DNA of 64,000 bases, taken from Phycicoccus avicenniae. Its GTDB lineage: Bacteria > Actinomycetota > Actinomycetes > Actinomycetales > Dermatophilaceae. Under the pieces are notes generated by a model. It did not search any database. It had not been told where the DNA came from and saw only the letters and a list, made by a program, of their open reading frames with translations. A program made the position numbers and the translations under genes. Shown here in pieces: positions 27,183-34,748 of this stretch (positions are counted from its first letter, which is position 1; each line of letters opens with the position of its first letter). The stretch spans positions 186,001 to 250,000 of the forward strand of contig NZ_JAGSNF010000004.1 of the NCBI RefSeq assembly GCF_018139485.1, read 5' to 3'.

Positions 27183-27238
27183 TGGGCCTCGCCTTGGGCC
27201 CTCGGGCCCTGGGCGGGCCCCGCCCGTCCCCGTAAGTT
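27183..27238 (+). promoter_or_regulatory. flp promoter with GGGCCC-rich activator-type element
   Basis: Overlapping GGGCCC repeats end in GGCCCTCGGGCCCTG (27197-27211). GGGCCCTGGG (27204-27213) is followed after 19 nt by a TANNNT -10 (TAAGTT, 27233-27238). The element lies just upstream of and overlapping the -35 position. The same arrangement occurs before the two pilin-headed genes (32776 minus strand, 34791 plus strand). Transcription should start about 60 nt before the flp ATG. Confidence 0.6.
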
Positions 27239-27305
27239 CTTCCTCGTCAGGTCGGGGACCGCAGGCCCTCGGAACACAGGGGAAGCACAGACCAAGGAGC
27301 ACACC

Positions 27306-27515
27306 ATGACCCACTCCATCGCCGCCCGCTACACCAGCCTCGCGCGCCGCCTCCGGGAGCGCGCCGAGTCCGGCCAGAACGGCCTCGAGTACCTCGGCAT
27401 GGCGCTCGTCGCCGGTGTCGTCATCGCCGCGATCGCGGGTGTCGTCAACAACGGCTCCGTCACCGGCGTCATCCAGGACGCCTGGAACAACATCCTCAAG
27501 GGTGGCGGCAGCTGA
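27306..27515 (+). CDS. flp: Flp major pilin
   Basis: 69 residues; ATG with AAGGAG 6 nt upstream. Leader of 23 residues ends in ERAESG, with cleavage predicted between Gly23 and Gln24; mature residues 5-6 are Glu-Tyr (QNGLEY), the Flp hallmark. One hydrophobic helix (GMALVAGVVIAAIAGVV) and a short polar tail (NNGSVTGVIQDAWNNILK) complete the pilin. It is a separate transcription unit from the tad machinery, with its own promoter and a hairpin immediately downstream, consistent with a highly expressed structural subunit. Confidence 0.95.
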   Translation: MTHSIAARYTSLARRLRERAESGQNGLEYLGMALVAGVVIAAIAGVVNNGSVTGVIQDAWNNILKGGGS

Positions 27516-27528
27516 CCGACGTGAGGAC

Positions 27529-27558
27529 GGGGCGAGGGCCGGAGACGGTCCTCGCCCC
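27529..27558 (+). terminator. hairpin after flp, partial terminator or attenuator
   Basis: GGGGCGAGG pairs with CCTCGCCCC and the stem continues with GCCG/CGGT pairs around a GAGA loop. It has no T tract. It starts 13 nt after the flp stop and precedes the TadG-like gene by 36 nt, so it may stabilise the flp message and reduce read-through. Confidence 0.65.
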
Positions 27559-27594
27559 TCCCGCGGTCCACACGGAGGGGAAGGGCTCGAGCCG

Positions 27595-28179
27595 ATGAGG
27601 ACGAGACGACAGGAAGCCGGCCAGGCGGTCACCGCCCTGGTCGTCGCGGCGACCCTGCTCGTCGTCGGCGCCGCCCTCGCCCTCGTCTACCGCGGCTCCG
27701 CGGCCGCCAGCCAGGCGAGCACGATCCAGTCCGGGGCGGACGCCGCCGCCCTCGCCGGCGCGCAGCGGGTCGCCGACCAGGCGTGGGGCAAGATCCAGGC
27801 CTCGCTCAACTCCCGTCGAGGGGAGTGGCACGGCAACGACGGGTTCGGCCGGGCACAGTCCTACGCCTCGCGCAACGACACCCGTCTCACCACCTACTCC
27901 TACTTCCCGCTCGCCGACCGGGTCGAGGCCACGGTGACGAGCGACTTCCGGACCGAGACCGGCTCGCCCGAGCGGGCCTCGGCCGTCGCCGAGACCGGTC
28001 GCCGGCTCGCGGTCTGCATCGTCGTGACGATCCCCGGGTCGGTGACCGGGTACGAGACGACCGCGACGTGCGGCGACATCACCGTCGACGTCTACGTCGA
28101 CCCGTCGGGGGGGACCGTCACGCTGCTCACGCCACCCGGCCAGCTGAAGAAGGAGTTCCGGGTCCGCCTCGTCGAGTGA
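27595..28179 (+). CDS. TadG-like Flp assembly protein
   Basis: 194 residues; ATG 27595 with GGAGGGGAAGGG upstream. The N-terminus MRTRRQEAG-QAVTALVVA looks like a pilin leader, but mature position 5 is Ala instead of Glu, so processing is uncertain. A helix (ALVVAATLLVVGAALALV) and the TadE/TadG-type ADAAALAGAQ motif follow, then a beta-rich domain with a Cys pair (LAVCIVV, TATCGDI). TadG-type proteins act in Flp assembly or anchoring. The gene ends the plus-strand tad cluster at a strong bidirectional hairpin. Confidence 0.82.
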   Translation: MRTRRQEAGQAVTALVVAATLLVVGAALALVYRGSAAASQASTIQSGADAAALAGAQRVADQAWGKIQASLNSRRGEWHGNDGFGRAQSYASRNDTRLTTYSYFPLADRVEATVTSDFRTETGSPERASAVAETGRRLAVCIVVTIPGSVTGYETTATCGDITVDVYVDPSGGTVTLLTPPGQLKKEFRVRLVE

Positions 28180-28193
28180 CCCGCCACGAACGT

Positions 28194-28235
28194 CGGAGCC
28201 CGGTCCGCCCGCAGGGGGTGTGGGACCGGGCTCCG
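28194..28235. terminator. bidirectional terminator hairpin
   Basis: A 13-bp perfect stem: CGGAGCCCGGTCC (28194-28206) pairs with GGACCGGGCTCCG (28223-28235), 16-nt loop. It lies between the convergent TadG-like gene and the minus-strand lipoprotein operon and can serve both. There is no T tract. Confidence 0.75.
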
Positions 28236-32883: not shown

Positions 32884-32951
32884 AGGCGTGGTGCGGAGGT
32901 CGGGTCCTCGGGCGGATCCCCGGGGGCGCCCGCTCGGGCATGATGGGCCGG

Positions 32952-33605
32952 GTGAGGACGACGGGGAGGACGACGGTCCGGGTGGCGTCGCTGCTGGCGG
33001 GCACCGTGGCGGTGCTCGTGGCGGCCGCCTGCTCCGGACCCGGGGCGGAGGACGGGACCGGCACGGACCGGCTCGAGAGCATCCGACCGAGCGCCACGGC
33101 GAGCGACCTGGCGCCTGCCGCCGCGCCGCCGCCGGGGTTCCGGACGGTGACTGCCGAGGGCTTCACCATCGCGGTGCCCGAGGGGTGGGAGGAGCGGACG
33201 ACCGCGCCGCAGGAGGGCCCGAGGGGGGAGTCCACGACGACGACCGGCTTCCGGCCCCCCGGCGGGGACACCGAGACCTGGCAGGGTCTGAGCGTCGTCG
33301 TCGTCGAGAACGACCCGGTCCCGGTCACCGAGAGCAGCGAGGTGCTCGCCTCGACGAAGCAGGACGTCGCCGGCGCGACCGATGTCACCCGGCGCAGCGT
33401 CGAGTGGCCCGGGGCGAGCGAGGCGGTCGTCGTCGACTGGACCGAGGAGGTCCGCTCGACGCCGGTGCGCTACCGCCAGCTCATGCTGCGGGTCGGCGCG
33501 TCCACGACGGTGAACGTCGTCGCCCTCACCCGGGAGGACCTCTTCGCCGACGGCGACGCGGCGAGCGCCCTGCGGACGGTCGCGCTGACCCCCGAGGCCG
33601 CCTGA
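32952..33605 (+). CDS. lipoprotein with PsbP/LpqN-like domain (partner of copy 1)
   Basis: 217 residues from GTG 32952. CATGAT ends 7 nt before this GTG, which fits a leaderless message; an upstream in-frame ATGATG at 32940 is the alternative and would overlap that -10. Signal peptide with lipobox VAAAC. The mature part begins with a short Ser/Pro/Ala spacer, then FTIAVPEGWEERTTA, a pattern typical of LpqN/PsbP-like lipoproteins, and ends with ALRTVALTPE. The product at 36316-36834 has a similar layout and also neighbours a pilin-headed gene. It may assist surface display of the pilin-headed protein (inference). Confidence 0.8.
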   Translation: MRTTGRTTVRVASLLAGTVAVLVAAACSGPGAEDGTGTDRLESIRPSATASDLAPAAAPPPGFRTVTAEGFTIAVPEGWEERTTAPQEGPRGESTTTTGFRPPGGDTETWQGLSVVVVENDPVPVTESSEVLASTKQDVAGATDVTRRSVEWPGASEAVVVDWTEEVRSTPVRYRQLMLRVGASTTVNVVALTREDLFADGDAASALRTVALTPEAA

Positions 33606-33647
33606 GCCCGCGCCGGCGTCGCTCCGGCGTCCGTCGATCCCGCAGGG

Positions 33648-34169
33648 TCAGCGGCGACGGGGGTCGGAGGCCCGGGCCACGACCCGCATGACGAGGGCGG
33701 TCCCGGCGATGAACAGGCTGCCGACGACGAGCGCGACGGAGAACACGAGCGCCTGACGGCCGGGGCTCGTCGCGACCGCGACCGAGGCGAGGCCGTCCCC
33801 GGTGCACGTCATCTCACGCCCCGCGAAGGCCTCCGAGACCGGCAGGGCCTCGACGTGCTCGACGCCGTCGACGTCGATGGTGTCGGGGAGCACCGGGGGC
33901 ACGGCGGAGCCGGACCGGGACAGCTCGCCGAAGGTGCACGTGACCGCCGACCCGGCGAGGTCCGCAGGGGCGACGAAGACCGCGGCGTCCCCGTCGACGT
34001 CGTCGCCGAGCGTCACCGGTTCGCCGGGGGCGGCCCGCAGCGCCACCGACGGCGCGGCCGAGAGCGCGACGACTCCGAAGGCCAGACCCGCGAGCAGGAC
34101 GACGGCCGAGCCGGTGAGCACGAGGGGCCAGAACCGGGCGGACGAGTACGGGAACGACGAGGCCGGCAT
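33648..34169 (-). CDS. two-helix membrane protein of unknown function
   Basis: 173 residues; ATG 34169 with GATGAT ending 6 nt upstream, probably leaderless. A first helix (PLVLTGSAVVLLAGLAFGVV), an extracytoplasmic domain of about 100 residues with two cysteines (AVTCTFGELSRSGSAVPP; REMTCTGDG), a second helix (LVFSVALVVGSLFIAGTALV) and the tail ASDPRRR. The arrangement and the two Cys blocks resemble the 17991-18563 product. Function is unknown; both copies border pilus-related genes. Confidence 0.8.
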   Translation of the reverse strand: MPASSFPYSSARFWPLVLTGSAVVLLAGLAFGVVALSAAPSVALRAAPGEPVTLGDDVDGDAAVFVAPADLAGSAVTCTFGELSRSGSAVPPVLPDTIDVDGVEHVEALPVSEAFAGREMTCTGDGLASVAVATSPGRQALVFSVALVVGSLFIAGTALVMRVVARASDPRRR

Positions 34170-34217
34170 GGGAGGATCATCCCAGTTCGGACCGACGTCG
34201 ACCCGAGGGAGCACGGC

Positions 34218-34637
34218 ATGACCACGCGTCACGTGCTGTGGGCCGTCGGGGGCGTCGTGGCGGTGGGTGTCGTCGTGGGGATCCTCGGGACCGTCGGGGT
34301 GGTCGCCGGCTCGAGCGCGCTGAGCGTGGGGTCGGCCGTCGTGCTGCGGACGGTGCTCTCCCTGCTGGGCCTGGGCTTCGTCGTCGTCGTCCTCGCGCGA
34401 CGGGGGCCGTGGGACCGGCCGCTCCCGCTCGTCGGTGTCGCTGCGGGCGGGCTGCTCCTCGACCCTCTCCTGTGGTCGGCGACGGCCGAGGCCGGGGGAC
34501 CGCTCTTCGGCGTGGCCCTCACGGGTTCCACGGTCGCCGGCCTCCTGCTCGACGTCGTCGTGTGGCTCGGGCTCGCCGCCGGGACCGCGCTCGTCGGGCT
34601 GCGCGGCCACGACGAGGACCCCCGCCGGCTGCGCTGA
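34218..34637 (+). CDS. small four-helix membrane protein
   Basis: 139 residues; ATG 34218 with GGGAG upstream. Four hydrophobic segments: VLWAVGGVVAVGVVVGIL, VLRTVLSLLGLGFVVVVLA, VGVAAGGLLLDPLLW and VAGLLLDVVVWLGLAAGTALVG. The tail is HDEDPRRLR. No known domain. Another small multi-helix protein (36831-37181) is encoded at the end of the second pilin-headed module, so such a protein may be a common element of the modules. Confidence 0.75.
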   Translation: MTTRHVLWAVGGVVAVGVVVGILGTVGVVAGSSALSVGSAVVLRTVLSLLGLGFVVVVLARRGPWDRPLPLVGVAAGGLLLDPLLWSATAEAGGPLFGVALTGSTVAGLLLDVVVWLGLAAGTALVGLRGHDEDPRRLR

Positions 34638-34692
34638 CCGGACCCCCGCCGGCCGCCGGGCGGACCGGCCCGGCTGTCGGGGAGGGGGACCC

Positions 34693-34748
34693 GGGCCCGG
34701 GACCAGGCCCCTGGGCCCTGGGGCCGGACCCTCCCGCGCCGGTAGCGT
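34693..34748 (+). promoter_or_regulatory. promoter of pilin-headed gene 2 with GGGCCC-rich element
   Basis: A 28-nt block (34693-34720) ends in GGCCCCTGGGCCCTG. From the end of GGGCCCTGGG (34713-34722), 20 nt separate it from TAGCGT (34743-34748), a good TANNNT -10. Transcription would begin about 36 nt before the ATG at 34791, which has a GGGGGGAG ribosome binding site. Confidence 0.65.

Follow-up and report, generated by a model that had tools for sequence, protein, structure and literature searches.

A conserved three-half-site promoter element at flp and pilin-headed genes of Phycicoccus avicenniae, with an adjacent NarL-type regulator as its proposed binder

Are the main pilin gene flp and two larger pilin-headed genes of Phycicoccus avicenniae controlled together, and by the two-component system encoded beside flp? 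The 64,000-nucleotide stretch of DNA analysed here (the window) holds a NarL/LuxR-type response regulator gene, the gene of its presumed partner kinase, flp, and the pilin-headed genes copy 1 and copy 2 (Table 1). The original prediction proposed that the last three share a promoter element recognised by the regulator.

All three putative targets carry a Flp-type pilin signal (G-x(2-4)-LEY or similar, plus a hydrophobic stretch), in the variants GLEY in flp, AAEY in copy 2, and SLEK in copy 1. In the Pfam search DUF4244 was found for flp only and below the cut-off, and the pilin-headed proteins had no family above it. The coding regions of copies 1 and 2 share 38% identity over about 176 amino acids, and an AlphaFold2 model of copy 2 with 12 homologues was poor (mean pLDDT, 45) and was left unused. 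Small lipoprotein genes lie beside both copies, one codirectional with and following copy 2 (36316-36834) and one divergent from copy 1 (32952-33605), and in a relative (locus L048) a lipoprotein gene stands between the element and the pilin-headed gene; lipoprotein and pilin-headed protein are possibly a functional pair. Between flp and copy 1, at 28292-31417, two similar pairs of secreted/lipoprotein genes occupy the minus strand (28292-28894 with 28904-29953, and near 30072-30630 with 30629-31417), and one member shows, by eye, an OmpA-like C-terminal sequence.

The regulator is of the NarL/LuxR type, with both of its domains above the Pfam cut-off (PF00072, 8e-23; PF00196, 1.5e-18), and it can be aligned along its length with NarL, VraR, and DevR. 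The helix EKTVKNHIN hardly varies from one orthologue to another, and the portion EKTVKN is common to DevR. EKTVKN helices are, in general, common in the NarL family, so that this helix singles out no one regulator.

A three-half-site element in a fixed register

The GGGCCCTG blocks of the original prediction are present in the three promoters, at 27204-27211 (plus strand), 32863-32856 (minus strand), and 34713-34720 (plus strand), and its sequence comparisons are likewise correct, with the 15-mer GGCCCCTGGGCCCTG matching at 15/15 positions between copies 1 and 2 and at 13/15 in flp, and a longer block matching at 25/28 between the two copies. The gap between the end of GGGCCCTG and the -10 hexamer had been given as 19 to 20 nt and is actually 21, 21, and 22 nt, and the proposed TANNNT-like hexamer exists at flp and copy 2 but not at copy 1, which has GAGGAT. 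The shared element itself is real and was understated, since a third, upstream half-site had been overlooked in each promoter. At flp, copy 1, and copy 2 alike, three half-sites follow the fixed register GGGCCY-N6-RGGCCC-N2-GGGCCC-TG, in which half-site 1 lies exactly 12 bp 5' of half-site 2 and half-site 3 is separated from the -10 hexamer by 23 nt (flp), 23 nt (copy 1), and 24 nt (copy 2). The spacers of 6 and 2 are identical among the three promoters and agree with those of promoters in other genomes.

Table 1. Features of the regulator and pilin locus (window positions)
Feature	Position	Strand	Details
HisKA_3-type sensor histidine kinase, presumed partner	25349..26536	+	domain; adjoins regulator gene
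NarL/LuxR-type response regulator, proposed binder	26536..27171	+	receiver and GerE HTH; helix EKTVKNHIN
flp promoter element	27182..27211	+	TT-GGGCCT (27184-27189), N6, GGGCCC (27196-27201), N2, GGGCCC (27204-27209), TG
flp -10 hexamer TAAGTT	27233..27238	+	column shared with ten flp promoters from other genomes
flp, 69-aa Flp-type pilin, DUF4244-like	27306..27515	+	below Pfam cut-off
copy 1, pilin-headed gene	31496..32776	-	GTG start 32776; no Pfam family
copy 1 -10-like hexamer GAGGAT, weak	32829..32834	-	spacing as in flp
copy 1 promoter element	32856..32885	-	GGGCCC (32883-32878), N6, GGGCCC (32871-32866), N2, GGGCCC (32863-32858), TG
copy 2 promoter element	34691..34720	+	GGGCCC (34693-34698), N6, AGGCCC (34705-34710), N2, GGGCCC (34713-34718), TG
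copy 2 -10 hexamer TAGCGT	34743..34748	+	1 base further out than that of flp
copy 2, pilin-headed gene, 497 aa	34791..36284	+	

If the transcription start is assumed to lie 7 nt past the hexamer, the inverted repeat made up of half-sites 2 and 3 has its centre at -42.5 for flp and copy 1 and at -43.5 for copy 2. With this assumed start, the repeat occupies the position of a class II activator site, which has its centre at about -41 to -43, overlaps the -35 region, and keeps a fixed distance from the -10. No recognisable -35 hexamer accompanies the -10 elements.

In many genera another conserved block, TGTCAGCA or a close variant, is seen about 5 to 7 nt past the flp -10. Its version in the window is CGTCAGG, at about 27244-27252, and loci L083, L085, L090, L092, L128, and L129 have it at the same place; the block possibly shows where transcription starts or where the mRNA has its 5' end.

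Occurrence in the genome, the family, and the class

On its own, GGGCCCTG occurs 8 times in the window against 4.75 expected, which is not unusual, and for want of enrichment there it was dropped as evidence. The exact 15-mer GGCCCCTGGGCCCTG has just two occurrences over the 3.54 Mb of the genome, one at copy 1 and the other at copy 2. The genome-wide tests consisted of pattern searches. The pattern GGGCCCTG-N10..16-TANNNT had no match because the true gap is 21 to 22 nt. Within the window, a matrix built solely from ten flp promoters of other genomes ranked flp (39.1 bits), copy 2 (23.7 bits), and copy 1 (14.9 bits) as the top three sites, the next best reaching -3.8 bits and the maximum over 12 simulated windows being 11.5. 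When the genus of the window was excluded from the matrix and the -10 disregarded, flp scored 27.6, copy 1 19.1, and copy 2 14.8 bits (next best, 7.3), and the genus-left-out matrix peaked at 7.9 over 66 kb of other sequence from the same genome.

A search of the genome for the triple pattern, with up to one mismatch allowed, returned flp (on both strands), copy 1, copy 2, C2:44552, C19:139215, and the single-mismatch match C11:192829. Controls gave counts no lower than the real search (12 versus 7), so the argument rests on where the matches lie and not on their number. The site at C2:44552 is a complete element 5' of a fourth pilin-headed gene; that at C19:139215, apparently inside a coding region, was taken as chance. 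Many matches unrelated to promoters would speak against a promoter element, and the genome-wide scan for these left that reading standing. Other contigs of the genome encode three pilin-headed genes beyond copies 1 and 2, at C2:44624, C13:156601, and C22:114327 (loci L047, L055, and L053). The element is full at the first, reduced to half-sites 2 and 3 at the second, and present as half-site 3 only, with TAGCGT, at the third. No promoter of tad assembly genes bearing the element was found within the window.

Across 149 genomes of the family, the strict pattern GGGNCY-NN-GGNCCCW-N22..23-TANNNT matched in 29, with 0 to 1 matches per genome and strand for reversed controls and two matches in the genome of the window, at flp and at the pilin-headed gene on C13. 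When regulator-positive genomes were defined by an orthologue at E <= 1e-57, a limit set after a gap had been seen in the list, the pattern was present in 13/13 of these versus 16/136 others (Fisher p = 4e-11, a value that overstates independence because the genomes are related); at a looser limit of E <= 1e-40 the counts are 14/17 versus 15/132. In regulator-positive genomes, at least 21 of the 24 strict matches lie directly 5' of pilin-signal genes, which were identified in part with a simple pattern and inspected by eye. The other three comprise one ahead of a lipoprotein gene that has a pilin-headed gene after it, one at a contig end, and one that is unrelated. Among the remaining genomes, none of the 22 strict matches is at a pilin-signal gene, a judgement based on the loci that were read and on where the pilin matches fall.

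The 11 flp promoters of the family that follow a close regulator orthologue share the same triple register (TT-GGGCCC, N6, GGGYCC, N2, GGRCCC, TG, then the TANNNT hexamer), with the -10 in the same column; GGGYCC-NN-GGRCCC, at most one base off, is found in 10 of them. Flp-like matches were obtained in 67 genomes. Where flp adjoins the regulator (11 genes), its leave-genus-out scores range from 24.4 to 35.3 bits. All 17 sampled pilin-like genes without a close regulator orthologue lack the element, 15 scoring at most 0.4 bits and two 6.6 to 6.9; these two (genomes G047 and G102) have more distant regulators adjoining flp. Several pilin-headed genes in relatives are without any part of the element.

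Regulator orthologues extend to other families of the order (f5, f16, f18) and of the class (f35, f37, f45, f57), mostly directly 5' of a Flp-type pilin gene and separated from it by GGGYCC half-sites. The full register is not present at every locus, and some loci showed no pilin. Among named strains, Janibacter corallicola NBRC 107790 carries the element.

The adjacent regulator as proposed binder

The element is very probably the binding site of the adjacent response regulator, because it recurs across actinobacteria wherever that regulator adjoins the main pilin gene. Both the predicted regulator site, whose sequence, spacing, and register are conserved over many genera, and the proposal of the LuxR-type protein as its binder, through strict co-occurrence, adjacency, and a DevR-like recognition helix, are thus borne out at the level of sequence. 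The tie of the pilin-headed genes to the pilus is also supported, as several genera have the element in front of flp and of pilin-headed genes.

We consider it likely that the element is the operator through which this regulator activates flp and the pilin-headed genes. A regulator dimer would bind half-sites 2 and 3, the 6-2-6 inverted repeat GGGYCC-NN-GGRCCC, at about -42.5 and over the -35 region, where activators in contact with RNA polymerase usually sit. Half-site 1, which has the same orientation as half-site 2 and lies 12 bp upstream of it, would help, probably by cooperatively recruiting a further regulator molecule. Activation of the kinase would then turn on flp together with copy 1, copy 2, and other pilin-headed genes of the genome, so that the main pilin and the pilin-headed proteins would be made in one programme. 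The consensus AGGGCCGATCGGCCCT bound by OsdR of Streptomyces coelicolor has 6-2-6 geometry (PMC5069765), and DevR target promoters have closely packed, cooperatively bound sites, the proximal one overlapping the -35 (PMC3029386); these precedents make a class II activator the simplest model. We infer binding, activation rather than repression, the dimer with its extra molecule, and the signal; sequence, register, spacing, conservation, genome-wide specificity, and co-occurrence with the regulator are direct observations. The weak -10 of copy 1 and the partial elements on C13 and C22 count against the operator reading, as do the pilin-headed genes of relatives that lack it altogether.

The local regulator might instead bind and repress, blocking RNA polymerase at the -35 region, and the position of the repeat fits either sign. 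We regard this as improbable, as the absence of a recognisable -35, the constant spacing from the -10, and the precedent of DevR, which activates from this position, favour activation.

Slightly less probable still is that a global hypoxia regulator of the DosR/OsdR kind, and not the local regulator, has its boxes here. DevR/DosR of Mycobacterium tuberculosis and OsdR are likewise NarL-type, and the element shares with OsdR the 6-2-6 geometry and the GGG...CCC ends, its half-sites starting with GGG. Most strict matches in regulator-negative genomes do resemble DosR/OsdR boxes. Three loci without the regulator (L110, L117, L125) carry GGGACC-NN-GG(T/G)CCC boxes with the -10 at the same distance, ahead of genes resembling a cytochrome bd subunit (CydA), a phosphoribosyltransferase, and hemerythrin; these are probably DosR/OsdR-type boxes with the same promoter geometry. 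However, the half-site here is GGGYCC, and the DevR/OsdR preference for GGGAC or GGGCCG is not seen; the half-site ends in C or T and not G, although the strict pattern itself demanded C or T there. The fourth base of the half-site is C or T in 23/24 regulator-positive matches versus 4/22 elsewhere (p = 5e-8, with the same caveat on relatedness), most regulator-negative matches having A. Unlike DevR/OsdR boxes, the element has an added half-site 12 bp upstream, and its targets are pilin genes rather than hypoxia or dormancy genes. Furthermore, no regulator-negative match precedes a pilin gene, and the element is missing from the sampled pilin-like genes of genomes that do not have the local regulator.

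Chance clustering of GGGCCC blocks in DNA so rich in G+C, or recent duplication of one site from another, would agree with the unenriched GGGCCCTG but is contradicted by the matrix from other genomes, the genome-wide rarity, the spacing, and the cross-family conservation, with the strong divergence of the two coding regions speaking further against recent duplication, so that we give it almost no weight. Equally implausible is an action of the palindromic GGGCCC blocks as hairpin-forming DNA or RNA structure, as bases are conserved at fixed spacing to the -10, conservation hinges on whether the regulator gene is present, and an element upstream of the -10 lies outside the transcript.

Known systems and a possible class-wide regulon

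PprAB of the Gram-negative Pseudomonas aeruginosa is likewise a NarL/LuxR-type two-component regulator and controls a flp-tad locus, and no matching binding site was found in the literature passages available on it. In the available passages on Micrococcus luteus, an actinobacterial Flp pilus has regulators encoded near the pilus genes, and neither such an element nor a LuxR-type regulator is seen for Flp/com (PMC8467076); Flp/Tad pili serve DNA uptake in this species (PMC4322843). The open-access literature yielded no description of the operator or regulon and nothing relevant on two-component control of Streptomyces Flp pili. The type of site is thus already known from DevR/OsdR, and the regulon and the three-half-site layout were nowhere found described in that literature.

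Taken over the class, the loci point, with moderate probability, to an undescribed actinobacterial regulon in which a flp-adjacent NarL-type system with an operator code of its own (TTGGGYCC-N6-GGGYCC-N2-GGRCCCTG, with the -10 at 23 to 24 nt) co-expresses the Flp pilin and pilin-headed proteins. If so, the large, variable pilin-headed proteins would be accessory or tip proteins borne on the pilus. Little is known of Flp/Tad pilus regulation in actinobacteria, for which a candidate regulator, operator, and target list can now be named from sequence. As a mark of membership in the pilus programme, the operator would link pilin-headed proteins without a Pfam family to the Flp pilus and help to find more of them.
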